The notes beneath the pieces are model-generated. The model worked only from the letters and a program-made list of their open reading frames with translations, was not told where the DNA came from and made no database searches. Shown one piece after another: positions 5,115-35,300 of a stretch of DNA of 64,000 nt. The stretch spans positions 10,168,001 to 10,232,000 of the forward strand of contig JAGUCH010000003.1 of the NCBI GenBank assembly GCA_019096065.1, written 5' to 3'. This DNA is from Paracyclopina nana (taxonomy: Eukaryota; Arthropoda; Copepoda; Cyclopoida; Cyclopettidae). A program made the position numbers and the translations under genes. Each line of letters opens with the position of its first letter. Within the stretch, counting starts at the first letter, position 1.

Positions 5115-8100
5115 ATGTCAGTTGTTGTGATTGGTAAAGACTATGTCATCAAAAGAAAGTGTTGTGTTCCCAGCTGTAACACAAAATCTGAGTACGGAAT
5201 GTTCAACTTTCCTAAGGATGACCAAAAGAGACAAGCTTGGTTTAATGCCATCCATGTGTCAAAGGCCCGACCTGGTGATAGAGTTTGCTTTAAGCATTTT
5301 TGCCAATCCGACTTTATATATAGAGTGAACTCTACAAACCCAAAGATGAGGCTGCAAAAATGGGCTATACCCTCCAAGTGCATTATGCATGTTTCCAATT
5401 CACAACAGTAACATAACAATAACAAACGCAAGTAGCACGCCTAGCGGACGGAAAGTTGAAACATTTGGGATTAGGGAGTAGTCGATTCAAAATTCAGTGC
5501 TACAAGATCCCTTGATGTGCGCGTGCAGTGAATTTTGGATCGTTTACATCATCTAACAAGAAAAGGATAAAAAAAGGACCGATCTTAGGGCAATTTTTGT
5601 GTGCATTAGCTATTTTTTTAGTTTCGTGTTGGCTACAAGTTTTCTAAACTGTTAGAAATCATCAAGATCAATGGAGCAAGTTTTTTGGCACGCCAATTGA
5701 GAAGTCTGCAGATTATTTTGATTCTTGTTTTTATATTTCAGCCTCAAAAAAGTAGTACGGTTGTGTAAACCGTGAACCCTGAAATCCCAAGTATTTCTTC
5801 AGTAATGTCACTTGATGGCGCATCATTGTTATGATACTTTTGTCTATTCAGATGTAAGTTAATATAAGTGATAACATTAGGTTTTTTAAATAGTACTATT
5901 AAATAGAGCTTCTTGGAGATCATTCAAAACCGCCCAATGCCTTTGTCTGATCTTGAACTTGGCATGGAAGTAATGGTCTCAGAAGTACCTTCAGAGGACT
6001 CTTTTTCAATTGATGCTTCCTCATCACCTATGGCAGCAGCATCCTCTACATCAATCTCTCACGAGTGGCAGGAACATTCTTATTGTGACTTTTCATCTGA
6101 TAGACTTTGGAAAATAGTTGAGTTGGAGCAGAAAAACAAGCTTCTGAATGGCAGGATAACTTATCTTCAAAGACAGCTCAGACTCTACAGAAATAAGTAC
6201 TTTTCCCTCAAGTCTGGTAAGATGCCAGCTTCTGCTAAGGGCCAAATTGTGCACAGTGTCTTGAAGGGCAAGTTTACTCCCTCTCAAATTGACATGATCT
6301 TGAAAAAGAAGCAAAAATGCAAGAGTTGGACTAAGGAAGACTACTGCAATGCAATGGAAATAAGGAGAATTTCTCCTAAAGCCCTCCAATATCTTCGTAT
6401 GAAACAAATTCTGCCTTTGCCAGCTAAGAGCACATTGTCAAAAAAGTTCAGCTTCATCACTGTCTGCCCTGGTATGATCAAGCCTGTCATTGAGTATCTG
6501 AGAGTGAAGATTCCTTCTTTTGCTCCAAGGGAATGCTTGGCTGGCATCAGCTTTGATGAAATGAATTTGTCTTGCTTAGCTGATTTGGACTTGAAGAATG
6601 ACATGGTCTTAGGTCCTAGCAAAAATGCTCAACTTGTCATGGCAAGAGGCTTAACAGCACCTTGGAAGTTTCCTGTATTTGTGGACTTTGACTTAGCCAT
6701 AAGTGCTGTGCTCTTTAATGACATTATTCTTGCCTTGGAGGCTATTGGTATCAAAGTTTTGATTTCAACTTGTGATCAAGGTCCAAGAAATGCCTCTCTT
6801 GCCAGACAGCTCAAAGTTCCTAATGAGAATAATGTGGAGTTTCCCAATCCAGCTGACTCTTCCAGAACTGTCCTCTTTTCTTATGACTTTGTGCATGTGT
6901 TCAAGAATGTGAGAAATCATTTTCTTAGTTACTAAATAAACTTAGAGAGCGGACAGCAAAATCCGCAATTTTGCGCTGGTTCCTTTCACGTAACCTTTTA
7001 AGCAAGTCGGAAAGATATCTTTACCCTCTACAAAACCTAGTTAGCGGCATGGGGATCGGGAAAAGCAAAAGACAATTGTCATTATTTGTATAATTATTTA
7101 ATTATATACTACTGTTTCGGAAAAATTAAATACTGTATTCTTAAGCATAGGATTCATGTTTTTCCGTCAAAATACTCAATTCAGACTCTAAATAAAGGTA
7201 CGCAATCGCCTCAGATTTCTTTAATCGCTTTCAAAAGGAGCCACTACTGAAATTGACCGCTGATACCATAGTGCTCAATTTTGGCGTTGTCCACTCTCTA
7301 AGTTTATTCAGTAGCTACATTTTCTTGACAAAATTGTCACATTTGAGACTGGCACCACTGTCTCAAGCAAGGAGCTTTTGGATCTGAGAGACAAGATTTC
7401 TTCTGAAGTAACATGTGGCTTTCGTCTGTCTGATAAACACTTTGATTGCAAAAGAACTGATCGGCAATCAGTGATTTTGGCAAGGCAACTTTTCTCAAAA
7501 TCAGTGTCAGTGATGTTAAAGTCATTGTTTCCTGGTGACAAAGCCAAGTGTGAACTCTCCTTGTTCATAGCCACAATTGATGAAGCTTTTGATATTCTCA
7601 CTAGCCAAGTGATCTTCTCTAAAGAACCATCTAAGTGTGCTCTTGGTGTCAGCATTGAACACCAATCAGGTGTCCTCAGGAAGCTTTACCAATACTTTGA
7701 CACTATAAAGCTTGGAAGCAGGCAATCAATGCAGTGTTTGACCGGTGGCAAGATGGCTATCAAATGTGCTTTGAAGCTTCAAGTCCTTTTAAAGGAGGAT
7801 TGGTCCTCACCTTACCTTATGACATCTAGGATTAATCAAGACTATCTTGAGGCATTTTTTTGAACAATTAGAAGGCTTGGAGGCACTGACACTAGACCTA
7901 CAGCATTAGGATTCAACCAAAGAGTGTCAAACTACATAAAAGAGAAGTTTCTCAAAGATAAACAGTTTGATATTTTCTCACTGAAACCAGTGCTTGAGCA
8001 AGGCCAAGCAGGTGCACATAAAAATCCTTTAGACATGGCAGAGTCAGAGGTTGAGGATGATGTGCTTGAAACTTTTGATGTGATCACCAAGGATGCTGAG

Positions 8101-8581
8101 GATGAAGGCACAATTTGGCTTGCTGGGTACTTAGCCAAAAAGATGAGACACCTTGACCAATCATTGGGAAGCCGAAAAAATGAACAAGTTCCAGCTGAAA
8201 ACAGAAGAGTCCAATCTTTATTCACTGACCAGATGAATCGTGGAGGTAAGAAAAAGTAACTTAGCTTTCCAGATTTTAACAATTTGCTTTCTGATAGGTC
8301 TCACGTATCCCTCTGAGCACTGGCTGAAGGAAGTTGAAAAAATGTGCCAACTTTTCAACCAACATCATCCAGATAATGGAATTCAAATGGGTCCTGGTGT
8401 CACAAGGAATTTCCTTGCCAAATTGTCAGAGAGTTTTCCTCATAGGCATTTGTCAATCTTGAAGCTTTTTGCTTTACTAAGGACAAGGATAAGGATTAGG
8501 AAAATCAACAAGGAGAGGCATAAAATGAACGAAATGTCAATGAGAGGAAAAAATAAGCTTTCACAGTTGAGTCACAAATAA
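5115..8581 (+). pseudogene. THAP-domain / P-element-type transposase (THAP9-like), disrupted
   Basis: Remnant of a P-superfamily DNA-transposon transposase. Exon 1 (5115-about 5407) encodes a THAP zinc-binding DNA-recognition domain: CCVPSC near residue 17, a conserved Trp, then CFKHF. A likely intron follows (5408-5908, phase 2). From 5909 comes a coiled coil, then the P-element/THAP9 core: SPKALQYLRMKQILPLP, an acidic motif GISFDEM (first catalytic Asp), CDQGPRN (second Asp) and the DFVHVFKNVRN block. The frame is cut at 6926 by a 392-bp insertion. Deleting the insert and one 8-bp target copy joins the two halves in frame. A second lesion is a TGA at 7861-7863 within the conserved EAFF..IRRLGG motif. 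The last exon pair is joined by a 52-bp intron (8246-8297) and ends at 8581. No terminal repeats of the parent element were identified, so a domesticated gene that later died is also possible. Confidence 0.85.
6926..7317. mobile_element. hAT-like MITE inserted in the P-type transposase gene
   Basis: A 392-bp non-autonomous element with about 30-bp terminal inverted repeats that differ at three positions. The left end reads TAGTTACTAAATAAACTTAG and continues AGAGCGGACA; the right end is the inverse with C, G and T at the variable sites. It is flanked by a perfect 8-bp direct repeat CATTTTCT (6918-6925 and 7318-7325). An 8-bp duplication with ends starting TAG fits the hAT superfamily. P elements also make 8-bp duplications but have different ends. 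There is no internal ORF of note. Confidence 0.85.
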
Positions 8582-10377: not shown

Positions 10378-12798
10378 ATGGCATTCACAAGAGCTCATCT
10401 CTACAATTCAGTAAAAGTGTCTCCCACTGACCCTTCCTTCCCTACTGAAGTCAAGGCTTGTCTATTGTCCAAAGTTCAGAAAGATGCCAAAGATATGAGT
10501 GAAGAAGAGATGTCACAAATTGATGAGTTTATTAAGTATTTCTCTGGTCATGTTGCTACATTTTGGAGGAAGTGTCATAGGATGAAAACAAGGGTTCTCC
10601 AGAAGCACAATGAGTTTTTCCAAGTAGAAGTGTCCTTTGGCTTTGCTCAAGTACTTGTGGATCCTGGCCTTCCCCATCAAGTTGCACAGCCCTCATCAAC
10701 CAAATCTTCAGAGGTTCCAAAGAAGAAAAAAAGGACATCTTTCAGGTCACTATCTTCATCACAGCAATTTCGTGGAGCTGCTCAAGTCAGGCAATCAGCA
10801 GGACATGAAGGTGCAGTTATTTTGGCAGCTGCACAAACATTTCGTAGAATGGGCCATCATGATGCAGCTTTTGTGGTCCAGAGGCTTCAGTCCAACCCTG
10901 AAAAAGGAAAGAACTTAAAAAATGCTCTGCAAGAAGCCAGCCAGCCTGCAATGGAAGTAGAGGAAGCACTGGCAATCCTTTTTGACAGAAACTATTCAAA
11001 AAAGAGGTTCATTGAGTATAGAGCTGATGTGAACAAGTATGCAGGCAAAAAAGTTGTTCCTAGGTAATTTTACTCTTTCACATTTTCAATGATATCTCCC
11101 GTTCTACAAAAGCCACTGCAATGTAACATACTTTAACGAAAAGCTTGAAACCTTAGCTTTCCATGCAACTAAAATCCATTTTTGTGCTATGCTTAGAAGG
11201 AGAGATATGCACGTTTGAGAAAAAGGCATTTTCATCAAATTGTACTCCAACTAAACCTTATGTTCAACCTAGCTTTCATGCCTTTTAGCTACAAAACTCT
11301 GCAAACTGCAAAGGCTCAGCTGAGACCAAGAGGAATAGTAGTATCCAGTGACAAGGTTCTGGTCCCTCTACAGTCAACCTTAGAGCACACAGCCTCGAGA
11401 ATTTTGGATGACAATGACATGACTTTAAAGCTTTGTGATCTCTCAGAAAAAGGCAAAGTGAATATCACTTTCTACTTTAAATTTGGGCTGGATGGATCTC
11501 GTGGTCATGGCCAATATCACCAAGCTTGCTCACCTGAGGCCTCAACTGGAGCTCTTTTGGCCTCACAAATGGTTCCACTCCAGATGATAGCAGATGTTGG
11601 TGGTAGCAAAGTTGTTCTCTACAACAATGGCCTGGCCAATTCCTCAAGAGCTTGTCGTCCACTCTGTTATTGGTTTGTACCTGAAAACAAGGAAACCTTA
11701 GGAACAGAGATAAAGAGACTAAGAGAAGAACTCAGCCAATTGATCCCTCTGAAATGGACAAACAAAGTGATTGTAAACTTTAAAGGATATTGGTGCCTCT
11801 GTGATCAAAAAGTAGTCAACTTTTTGATGGACAATCCAAGCTCCATGAGCTGTCCCTACTGTTCAGCCACTCCAAGCCAAATGTCTGACCCCAATAGAGT
11901 GTTCACCATCAATCCTGATGCATTCCAAATTATGTGCTTCTCGATCCTCCACTTTGGCCTCAGAGCATTTGAGTTTGTCTTGAACATGGGCTACAATCAA
12001 GAGTTCAGATCATGGCAATGTAGACAAGGTAATCTGGATTCAAAGAAGAGAAAGCAGCAAGAAATCCATGACTTACTTCTTGAAAAGTTGAAAATTCGAG
12101 TAGGAGAGCCTAGAGATGGAGGAGCTGGTACAAGCACCACAGGCAATGTTGCCAGAAGAGCTTTTGAAAATGCTGCTGTCCTTGCAGAAATCTGTGATGT
12201 CCCGTATGAATTGGTTCATGGGCTGTACATTATCTGGATTGCCATGGCTTGCAACTTGCCATTGAATCCAGCCAAATTCGGAGCCAAATGCAGGGCCATT
12301 TTGTCAGTGTACCACTCTCATTGCTCTTGGTATAAGCTGCCACCATCAGTCCACAAGATCCTGGTTCATGGAGAAGAATTATTGAGTGCTCTTCCTCCAA
12401 CTCTTACTTGTGGAATGCTCTCTGAAGAAGGCTCTGAAAGTACCAACAGAATCACAAAATACAATGAAATCTTTCATGCCAGACAAGTTTCATGGGAGAA
12501 GAGAGCAGAGGACGTTTTTAAAAGAGCCATGGATCAATCTGACCCAAAAGTGCTGAGGCATCTTGAGCCCAAAAAACGAAATTCACGTAAGAAAAAGCCC
12601 TTGCCAGCAGAAGTTTTGGAACTGTGTGAAGAGCCTGAGATTCCCGGCTTACCTTGTATCCCAGATAATATTGGTGATGATGGAGACAAAAGTGATAAAG
12701 ATGACGACGATGGTGACAAAAGTGATGACAATGTTGATGATTTGGATGATGACGACGACGACGGCGACACAATTGAGCGGGTCTTTTCAGACTATTAA
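10378..12798 (+). CDS. Transib transposase (RAG1-like DDE recombinase)
   Basis: DDE transposase that would cut and paste the element by recognising its CACAGTG ends in the nucleus. Exon 1 is 10378-11063 (an upstream in-frame ATG at 10288 is also possible). The intron is 11064-11288 and exon 2 is 11289-12798, giving 731 residues. This junction was chosen because it yields VVPSYKTLQTAK, matching the family's conserved YPSY...AKK segment, and keeps phase. By motif alignment with RAG1 the catalytic residues are Asp297 (GLDGSRGHG, RAG1 D600), Glu361 (VPENKETL, E662), Asp401 (CLCDQKVV, D708) and Glu609 or 612 (SEEGSESTN, E962). Zinc ligands are CPYC (417, 420) and HKILVH (584, 589), with the RAG1 spacing. 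Diagnostic text includes CRPLCYWF and NEIFHARQ. The C-terminus is a long Asp-rich tail. No frameshift or stop interrupts it. Confidence 0.93.
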
Positions 12799-30602: not shown

Positions 30603-32022
30603 CTGAAAAAAAAATTCCTAATTATCACTTTTTATGCATTTTTGTTTTCAATTGTTGCCTATAATAATATTAAATGTCAATTACATTAAGTGTAAGCATG
30701 CTGTAAACTAGTTGACATATGTCAAGTTTTTCCTGCTATGCATTAGATGTACCAGCATATATGTATTTTGTATGTATTCACCTGAGGGGTGTTCGATGTT
30801 AGCTCAAAATCCTGTATTTCGTGGTTGTTGTGCTTTTTTCTAGCAGGAGAAGAATGTTTTCCGACCTAGTAATTCCAAGTGGGGAGGATAATTGGAGAAA
30901 ACTGAGGGAAAGTGATAATCAAATTGGAATTTAGGAGCTACTAGTAGTGTTTCCTTGACAGATGTTGGGAAATGTGGTGGAGAAAAGCAGACAGAGTGTT
31001 TTTTGTTGAACCAAGGCAGACAGGGAACTCAAGATGACGGAGGAAAGGAAGAAGATGAAGAAAAACTGGGTCGAGGCAGTCGGTCAGAGGCTACGTTTGC
31101 GTCCACTGTGAGTTCAAAAATAGTCTAGCCCCCCAAAAATGTCTTCAACTGAGAGTTGCTTCGAGCCCTTCCGTTCCAGCACTGAACGCTGGAGCAGCTG
31201 CTGCTAAAAACGCTTAACTTGGCATGGCTTGGCTGCTGCTGCTGCTGCTCTCCATTCTCTCTCTGACTCTCTCTCTGAGCTTCTCTGGCATTCTCTGAGC
31301 TCCATAGAATACCTTCCAATATGCTGCTGGTCTATTTCAATTTTTCAGGCCCATAGGCCTGACAATTCTTAGGCCCATGTCTTAATTCATTTTGGGACTG
31401 ATTTCTTATTCCACTCGGAGTTTGAGTTTTGTATTTTTTTATGGCCATTTCAGGGAAAATATGGTCCTGGGCATGAATGTAGAAAGCAAGGTGAAAGCCA
31501 CCGACAGGAGAAAGCAGCCTTGAATGACGTAGGCATTCTCTTCTGAGCTGGATGGCCCCTTATTGTAGAATATACTATATATACGAGGCCTCTCTCAACT
31601 CAACCAACTTGTGGCTCAATGCTTACGTAGTTTACTATATATACTATATGCTGCTACACACACTGGGGGCAATCGACCCTAAAAGTTGCTTTCTTTATTT
31701 AGAAAGCCTTTTTTGCACAATGTCTAACTTTGCCTTCTTCCTTGATGCAATATCTGCTATATGGTACTATTTTTTGGACAAAAAACGTAGTAAAAGCCTG
31801 GCTTTCTAAAACTGAGAGAATCTTGCGAAACAGAACAAATTACGGCCAAAGACTTTCTTTGGGGTTCATTAGTTCGCGAGATTATTGATTTACACATCAC
31901 CTACTATCAAAGTTGCCACTATATTCGGTAATTGATTGGACTTTAGCAAGTTTATTGCTGGTGTTGCTCTTACACCATACCTTGGAGAGAAAGCATGATT
32001 AATTATGCAAAGTTAACTACGG
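30603..32022. other. PC2 5' flank / peptide-gene 3' flank
   Basis: No conserved ORF was recognised. It includes CTG and CT microsatellite stretches (31195-31280). A minus-strand AATAAA at 31951-31956 lies about 70 bases downstream of the peptide-precursor stop and is its likely polyadenylation signal. PC2 upstream non-coding exons probably lie here. Confidence 0.5.
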
Positions 32023-32370
32023 TTAAGTCTGCTCTTCAAATAACAGCCTGTTTTTCTTCTGAAAATCCACGAATGAATGTTGACCGAAGTCTTCTTCTTC
32101 CAAAAAGGAATCATCTTCCACTGATCTCTTCTTTCGGCCAAATCCTATTGCAGGACCGCTGACGTGAGAAAAAAGGACATTTTTTAGTATTTTCTCAAAA
32201 TTATGCTGAAGAGTGGCGTTTTCTTACAATGTGCGGCCACAAAAGAGGCAACCCAGGAAAGTGGAACAATCGGTGCAAGTATTGCGCCCACCTCCATTGA
32301 TGAAGAAAAAACCTTGGCTTAGCTCTGCGAAAATGCAGGCAATCACGGACAAAATCAACCAGACCTTCAT
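32023..32370 (-). CDS. putative amidated neuropeptide precursor, four-Cys type
   Basis: A 92-residue secreted precursor read from two exons: 32370-32228 and 32158-32023. A 69-bp intron (GTAAGA...GTCAG, phase 2) joins them in frame. Residues 1-20 (MKVWLILSVIACIFAELSQG) form a typical signal peptide. The mature region starts FFFINGGGRNTC and has two CxxC pairs (residues 32/35 and 41/44). It runs to FGPAIGFG-RKKR at 48-59. Gly followed by RKKR is the standard signal for PC cleavage, basic-residue trimming and C-terminal amidation, predicting a roughly 34-residue peptide ending ...AIGF-amide. An acidic spacer ends the precursor. A splice acceptor (TTTTTCCAG) 15 bases before the ATG and an AATAAA at 31951-31956 complete a gene-like structure. 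I do not recognise the peptide family. PC2 lies about 1.4 kb beyond the peptide gene's poly(A) signal, on the same strand. Confidence 0.8.
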
Positions 32371-35300
32371 GCTTTTTTTGTCTCCTGGAAAAAGATGATA
32401 CACAGTTGTATTTCAGCCTCTTCTGGTAAATTGCATCTAATTTACCTGCTTCTATTTTTGGTGCCCTCGCGCTTTATTGCTGTGAGATAAATGCGAGCTG
32501 CTGCTTTGTGTGTCGGATATAGATATCTGCACAATAAGGCCTCTTCTCCAATATTTATCCAATATATCAATATATAGAGGTAACTATGATGGCAAGAGCT
32601 GCAAGAACAAAAGGGTCACATACTTTAATGCCCCGTTCATCTACTCTAAAAAAAGTTTCCCCTAGAATTCAATTTTAAAAATTGAGGACAACGAAAATCG
32701 AGTCTCGTTTCTTTGATGTTTGAATTTGAAAGGAAAATCTTTGTCGAAAAAAACTTGCAGTGACTGCAAAAAATATTGAATAGAAAAAGGCAATTAATTT
32801 GAATGATGCAATTGTAATAGGAAAAAAAGGCAAGACACACCTCCTTATTCACGGATGATCTCCCGCAAACTAACGCTGGTTCGATTTATCGTACGAAATA
32901 TCACCTTTGGCCCAAGTGAGAATTTAACGCACACACGCTCTCGCAAAATGTACGTAAAGCACTGCTCGTATTCACAGTGACAGAAACTTTTGGTGGAAAA
33001 AAATATGACGCCACGCGAGAATTATATATTGCGAGATTTTGAAGATACAATCTCATTTTTTTGTATATGCTCAGCAAGGTGGTAAATGACATCACTCTCG
33101 TTGCCGCAAATGCGAAAAAAACGACTATCTTATTAATTATCAAGTGAAACAATGGCACTTTAAAACGTACTATATGTTCTACTTCTTTTCAAAAGTGAAC
33201 CAAAAAAAAAAAAAAAAAATGCGAAGTCATATAAAAAAAGGTTTTTTTTGCTAGGGCTCGCACTTTATTTGCAAAAGAAATGCAATTTGCACCTTGATGA
33301 AAATATTTGGGATAGCCACAAAACAGCCTTAAAAAGTGTGGCCCGCTTTTTTAGACGGGCTGATCTTTGTTGTTGTCATCGCGCGCGTTTTCACACGCGC
33401 GCCTTTTTCTACAAGCCACTAAAACACACACGCCTCTATTTGCCTTTTTTGGTTTTTGAATGATTGCAATGCACTTTTTGAATGCAAGGATGCATTCTGT
33501 TTACCATGTGCATTTTTAGCTTTTGGGTCCATTTCTGATGCCAATGCACTTGACCCCTTTATAATGCGGTTAAGCAGCGAATGTTGATTACTTTTTGATG
33601 CACTTACATTATTAACAAGCACCGGAACCACGAGAGCCATAAAAAATATGATACGTGAGCTTCTCGTAAAACGAGAGCAGTAACAAAATTATGAAAATTG
33701 ACTTAAAGTAAGTAGCTTTCATAATTATATTAACTAGGCGCACAGTGGAAAATTGTGTTTTCAGGCCAAATTCTAGTGATGCGAGCACATCCAAAATAAG
33801 GCTTTAATTTTTGGCAGTATGCGCATAAAAATTGGAAAATAGTCCACTGTGCATCCAGGGATATTTCTATTTTCAGCATCATTATTATTTAACTTAAATG
33901 GCCTGAATCATGCTATAGAATAAATGGTAATTTGATGGGCATTATTTCGCCGAATAGCTTCATCATTTTTCGCTCATACTCGCCCATTGTGCACGCTGAC
34001 GCAGAACTTTAGGTGCGTGCGACACACCTGCACGAGTTTTTTGACGCACCTAATGCGTCACAGGAGTTGGCTAGCATGCGTAAAGCTGGGATTAATCAAG
34101 CCGAATTTTCACACGACTTGTACAGATGAAAACACACATTTTTCGTATATTATTCATTATGCGGTTTCAAAGCCATTTCAAAAATCCTATTTTTTTCCTC
34201 AAGACAATTGTGAAAAGACAAAAAGTTAGGTTGGGCCTGAGAAAAATGAAACCAGGCCCAAAAATGCGTCAAAATGCGCATATGCACACGAATTTGAGTA
34301 CATTTCCCAAATGATGTTGATGAACTTGAACTGTACAATGATAATGTCGATGATGATGATGATTTTGAGCTCCTCATGACAATAGCAAAAGAGAATTGCT
34401 GCTCAATTCAAACCCAAATGAGGAAGATTCATGGTAATTGCTCAATATTTTTTTTCTCGGTACATGGCAAAATAGTGGCATTTGTTGTTCGTCAGACTAC
34501 ATTAGTCAATCGTCACAGTTTGCCAACTTTGAGGACATTAAACATACATTAAAATGATGTTTATGAAAAGTGAGGAAGTTTTTCCCAAACAATTTAATGT
34601 ACTCCACTGAATAGCTTAGCTGTCATGCAAAATGGATTCAGAGAAGCACTTTTTTAAACATGATTTATTCAAATCTTTGAAATTTGCCAACGGGCTGAAT
34701 CTGCATTTTGAACAGAATTCAACCTTCAATTTAAGTTGCTAATTAAAAAAGGCAAGTTGTTTATTATTACGCCACTTGCTTTTATAGCATATTTGGTCAC
34801 ACTTGGCGTCATGCACTTTTCCTTAACTACACCTGAGTACATTTTTTCAATAGGTGCGATTTTTTTCGCATTCTTTTGTTCGCGTGAACTTTTCTGGGCT
34901 GGGTGTAAAAGATGAAAAAATCGTTCGGCTCGATTTATTGCAGGATTTTTATGCTTTGTTTGCCTCTTTTACATTGTTTGCTCTTCATCTCAATTAAGTA
35001 AAATGTAGAGTGGTTGGTAGCATCCTGCCAAGCCAGCTCTTGAAAAAAGCTCTTTACTTCGACAACAAGAGTCATTCTTCCTTGTAAATTATGATGTTGT
35101 TGGAATGTTGTTGGTTTTGCAGGTGTGTGTCGCCAAGCTCTCAAGTTTAAGCAAAATTATCGCACATACGTATGAAAATTGAGCGGGACGCAAAACGTCA
35201 ACAAACCCACGTGGTCGATGGCTATTCCGGGAATTTGATCCATTTATGTGATAAATGAAGATAATGGGTGGAGAATGCACGTGACCTTGTTTTTTTTCCG

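Follow-up and report, generated by a model that had tools for sequence, protein, structure and literature searches.

In the window, by which the whole analysed stretch of 64,000 nucleotides is meant, a candidate gene for a small peptide precursor is located on the minus strand between 32370 and 32023, where two coding exons are joined in frame. The features of the locus and of its nearest relevant neighbour are the following:

32385..32445, minus strand: probable 5'-UTR intron of 61 nt, AGCAG/GTAAAT ... CTTTTTCCAG/GAGAC
32228..32370, minus strand: first coding exon, covering residues 1-47 plus two bases of codon 48, with the signal peptide (about residues 1-20) and all four Cys
32311..32370, minus strand: predicted signal peptide MKVWLILSVIACIFAELSQG, from simple hydrophobicity and the -3,-1 rule (own script)
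32159..32227, minus strand: coding intron of 69 nt, phase 2, GTAAGA...TACTAA...TTTTTTCTCACGTCAG
32023..32158, minus strand: coding exon 2, from the remainder of codon 48 to TAA, with GPAIGF, GRKKR and the acidic C-terminal peptide
32125..32139, minus strand: site G-R-K-K-R for convertase cleavage and amidation, residues 55-59
31951..31956, minus strand: AATAAA polyadenylation signal, 66 nt past the stop codon
25165-30595, minus strand: gene of a PC2-like prohormone convertase, its exons encoding S8 pro-domain, Peptidase_S8 and P-domain

The coding frame opens with an ATG at 32370, is closed by a TAA stop in exon 2 at 32023 and, once joined, runs without stop or frameshift. The 69-nt coding intron is of the GT-AG type: its donor reads ATT/GTAAGA directly after 32228, a TACTAA and a pyrimidine tract are found inside it and its 3' end is CTCACGTCAG. 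Re-derivation of the gene model returned exactly the span 32023..32370, the exon join, the intron at 32159-32227 and the length of 92 residues that had been proposed in an earlier note on this DNA. That proposal named no strand. The 5'-UTR intron (32445-32385), probable as judged from its sequence, and the AATAAA are additions to it; the acceptor of the former (CTTTTTCCAG/GAGAC) is placed 14 nt upstream of the ATG, and a second AATAAA occurs 323 nt past the stop. A relaxed scan also offered one other join, in which exon 2 differs and is shorter. Intron sizes of 61 and 69 nt are ordinary at this locus, since 5 of the 11 junctions examined in the adjoining convertase gene have best-fitting joins with introns of 54-68 nt (54, 57, 64, 65 and 68 nt); of the six remaining junctions, four agree with introns of 226-1623 nt, a fifth (211 nt) has a poor fit and the sixth gave no clear join.

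The spliced product of 92 residues consists of MKVWLILSVIACIFAELSQG, then FFFINGGGRNTCTDCSTFLGCLFCGRTFGPAIGF, the GRKKR and an acidic tail SVEDD...EEQT. The signal peptide claimed by the earlier note was recovered by our own script as a hydrophobic stretch with a site obeying the -3,-1 rule, by which cleavage is likeliest after Gly20 and possible after Ala15. The other elements described in that note are all present: the CxxC-x5-CxxC motif (residues 32, 35, 41 and 44, all four Cys being outside the signal peptide), the Gly-RKKR site (55-59), a peptide of about 34 residues and an acidic spacer. The Cys peptide ends in TFGPAIGF ahead of G-RKKR and, with two Arg and one Asp in 34 residues, is by its sequence not strongly cationic. 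The product has two features of amidated prohormone precursors, namely an N-terminal signal peptide (predicted) and a Gly followed by a basic convertase site.

The assembly comprises 91.95 Mb in 10 contigs. The convertase gene, taken to be PC2-like, starts at about 30595; it shares the candidate's strand and lies about 1.4 kb downstream, and that it should adjoin a likely substrate may be coincidental. On the side opposite the convertase the candidate is flanked by scribble-like exons with LRR and PDZ domains, also on the minus strand. The plus strand of the window carries, farther away, a DNA transposon in pieces that extend over several open frames (5907-8259) and include TNP-like RNase H and GTP-binding domains. 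On that strand too, an open frame of 533 aa at 11197-12798, without a Pfam match at E 0.001, is possibly part of a mobile element. Genome-wide, Cu2_monoox_C, a family which includes the amidating enzyme, gave 19 matches, in which true amidating enzymes and relatives are counted together. Two other peptide-precursor-like exons were noticed in the genome and suggest an arthropod source, probably a crustacean, namely an ACP-like one (QITFSRDWLAGS-GKR) and a PDH-like one (NSELLNSLLGLPKNILKS-GRK), each just above the Pfam cut-off and with an unusual C-terminus:

L004, G000:C1:2811982-2812041, minus strand: ACP-like exon
L026, G000:C5:1241937-1241984, minus strand: PDH-like exon

Relatives of the precursor were searched for in several collections. 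When the whole precursor and its mature part were compared by tblastn with the species' own 92-Mb genome, the gene itself was the only match and no second copy was found. The candidate was also the sole match of the pattern GFGRKKR in the whole genome, the reversed-pattern control giving 4. An IGFG-plus-basic pattern, in a form not covering the candidate, had 6 matches vs 4 in its control; of these six (L030 to L035), L030, L033 and L034 were inspected and none of the three is a precursor, L034 lying in another frame of what is presumably a myosin heavy chain exon. No Pfam-A family exceeded its curated cut-off, the sole match being zf-C2HC_2 with 14 bits vs a cut-off of 27; the prokaryote-oriented NCBIfam library gave 0 families at E up to 10, and among PDB sequences the matches were at chance level only, the best being an MMP2 fragment with E 0.26. 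The opinion of the earlier note that no family could be named is in line with Pfam, NCBIfam and PDB sequences, where no meaningful match was obtained. No relative appeared among viral contigs and prokaryote genomes, as expected for an animal gene, and these collections cannot gauge conservation. The candidate's peptide strings were absent from the literature searched, which covers few subscription papers and is weak evidence of absence; looser strings brought unrelated titles among the matches listed, and searches by topic found no such peptide in titles or abstract openings among the matches listed, which again is weak evidence of absence.

How often a model of this kind arises by chance was estimated with a precursor rule, written when the candidate was already known: a signal peptide, at most one intron, of 45-120 nt and of the form GT[AG]AG...[CT]AG, a total of 55-160 aa and 4 Cys between the cleavage site and G[KR]2+. 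Two sets served for comparison: 200 kb drawn at random from the same genome as 20 stretches of 10 kb, half of them from contig C1 and half from contig C3, and 266 windows of 64 kb from a third-order Markov model. Under the four-Cys rule a single start came from the window, none from the 200 kb of same-genome stretches and one from the 266 Markov windows together; once the number of Cys was left free, the counts became 1, 1 and 74, and it is therefore the Cys requirement that carries the weight of the rarity. Scaled to 92 Mb, the Markov count corresponds to about five chance four-Cys models genome-wide; the candidate is lifted by its flanking gene signals and not by the four-Cys count alone. 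A splice pair upstream of the ATG like that at 32445/32385 was found for 17 of 9763 ATGs, and an acceptor alone for 417 of them, over 264 kb (both strands of the window and of the 20 stretches); this rule, too, was written with the candidate known, and the candidate's own ATG is among the 9763. The upstream splice pair is counted as independent support for the gene.

The codon evidence for the coding exons is mixed. The codon model was trained on 1600 codons from exons of the window, and 3043 open frames served as the noncoding comparison. By the full codon score, exon 1 is equalled or exceeded by 8.0% of the noncoding frames and exon 2 by 16.1%, and the shares of coding windows scoring as low are 0.25% and 0% respectively. 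This score is unfavourable and does not support coding; it is also biased by amino-acid composition when a precursor is small and rich in Cys and Phe. On synonymous codon choice alone the whole candidate scores -0.011, which is intermediate, since it is high vs the background resampling (-0.328 +/- 0.102, with 2 of 5000 as high) and low vs the coding resampling (0.310 +/- 0.091, with 8 of 5000 as low). It is close to the scores of the PDH-like exon (0.014) and of the first exon of the convertase (-0.003) in the same genome, the ACP-like exons having 0.125 and -0.33. Taken separately, exon 1 reached 0.165, a value equalled or exceeded by 0.9% of noncoding frames, and exon 2 stood at -0.231 with 35% of noncoding frames as high, which is indistinguishable from noncoding sequence and gives no support.

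We are reasonably confident that the candidate is a real gene, without a second copy found, composed of one non-coding and two coding exons and encoding a secreted peptide hormone, probably a neuropeptide. This reading is preferred because the signal peptide, two short GT-AG introns, AATAAA and GRKKR amount to a complete gene anatomy, because the four-Cys model and the 5'-UTR splice pair are both rare and the synonymous score is above background, and because a PC2-like convertase lies 1.4 kb away in a genome with Cu2_monoox_C domains. It is weakened by the unfavourable full codon score, the noncoding-like exon 2, the chance models expected genome-wide and the alternative join. The suggestion of a peptide hormone, made in the earlier note, is upheld in part: the gene anatomy is best read as that of a secreted, amidated, Cys-bearing precursor. 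That the gene is transcribed in neural tissue, that its product is secreted, processed and disulfide-bonded, and to which class its receptor belongs, is what we infer.

In the mechanism proposed, signal peptidase would remove the signal peptide by cutting after SQG, and a convertase of the PC2 type would cut at GRKKR. The basic residues would then be trimmed off by a carboxypeptidase, and Gly55 would be converted by the peptidylglycine amidating enzyme to a C-terminal amide on Phe54, giving FFFINGGGRNTCTDCSTFLGCLFCGRTFGPAIGF-amide of 34 aa. With two disulfides its calculated [M+H]+ is 3621.63, or 3678.65 with Gly20 retained, and reduction would add about 4.03 Da. Up to two disulfides among Cys32, 35, 41 and 44, paired either as two local CxxC loops or as crossed bridges, could compact the middle of the peptide, with the amidated TFGPAIGF tail left free to bind a receptor that would most likely be a GPCR. 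The family of the hormone is unassigned and possibly lineage-restricted. More tentatively, the locus could represent an undescribed lineage-restricted family of arthropod peptide hormones, with a double-CxxC core, an FGPAIGF-amide tail and an orphan receptor, encoded beside the gene of its own processing PC2-like convertase.

It is unlikely that the product serves instead in defence, as a secreted antimicrobial peptide, or is some other effector with disulfide bonds. Arthropods have two-disulfide amidated defence peptides, tachyplesin and gomesin, and the predicted product is similarly short, Cys-paired, amidated and secreted and may be lineage-restricted, as defence peptides often are; it lacks, however, a strongly cationic character, its Cys spacing differs from that of tachyplesin and gomesin, no paralogue cluster was found by tblastn in the own genome, and the tetrabasic cleavage site and acidic spacer resemble those of prohormones. 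Quite unlikely, too, is a chance arrangement or a decayed gene, that is, an unexpressed open frame resembling a precursor. The weak codon signal, of exon 2 especially, the roughly five models expected genome-wide after scaling and the lack of a relative in the viral and prokaryote collections (where none would be expected) are what such a frame would display, but the joined frame is uninterrupted, and within 0.5 kb a signal peptide and paired Cys coincide with an amidation site of five residues, with AATAAA and with two short introns of good form.

The least probable explanation, which we regard as very doubtful, is a diverged member of a known family, either of the allatotropin/orexin type or of the calcitonin type with two N-terminal bridges. 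The GF-amide terminus speaks for it, as does the ARGFG[basic]R allatotropin pattern, which has 0 matches in the whole genome vs 3 in the control, and the candidate might then replace allatotropin. This idea is weakened because an allatotropin-like frame, L036, exists elsewhere in the genome (G000:C6:4594724-4594744, minus strand), and it is more allatotropin-like than the candidate. The candidate, moreover, has no ARGF-amide core, no calcitonin-style C-terminal Pro-amide and a Cys spacing unlike that of orexin-A.

In kind the candidate is ordinary, in family it is unassigned, and the gene is probably real. Peptide hormones outside the assigned families are a source of ligands for orphan receptors, and RNA-seq and mass spectrometry offer a direct check of a precursor this short, whose mass can be predicted exactly. 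A further lineage-restricted neuropeptide would be useful and not startling, because such families are already known in small crustaceans.

We know of no nameable family which combines the CxxC-x5-CxxC spacing with an AIGF-amide end. From allatotropin, orexin, calcitonin and trissin the candidate departs in at least one defining feature each. The precursors of CCHamide, CNMamide and trissin resemble it in their small size, signal peptide, short Cys-bonded peptide near the N-terminus and dibasic or longer cleavage site; CCHamide and CNMamide differ in having two Cys and other amidated ends, and trissin in having six Cys, where the candidate has four, and in not being known to be amidated. Allatotropin shares the GF-amide end, but its C-terminal core is ARGF-amide vs PAIGF-G in the candidate. 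A second allatotropin pattern gave 2 matches in the whole genome vs 0 in the control, and the open frame of L036, TTFGTRLKILIARGF-GKKKR after an AG acceptor-like site, is by its sequence a possible allatotropin candidate with an unusual core (ILIARGF-GKKKR). A SIFamide core pattern had no match in the whole genome, where an intron within the motif would hide one. The decapod B-calcitonins have two cysteine bridges and the candidate could form up to two, but known calcitonins end in Pro-amide and the candidate in IGF-G. Orexin-A and the ambulacrarian orexin-type peptides are like the candidate in a peptide of about 33 residues placed directly after the signal peptide, an amidated tail and Cys in the N-terminal half; the spacing in orexin-A is CC-x4-CxC vs CxxC-x5-CxxC here. 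In PMC4772807, orexin-A is given four Cys in two bridges, which favours kinship with the candidate, and the starfish orexin-type peptides six. Decapod neuropeptidomes are reported as very similar to insect ones in PMC4888303, and according to PMC6158917 and PMC4696782 DENamide is so far from Daphnia only and DXXRLamide and FXGGXamide from copepods only. By analogy, an unassigned family in a small crustacean genome would fit the lineage-restricted pattern of Daphnia and copepods.
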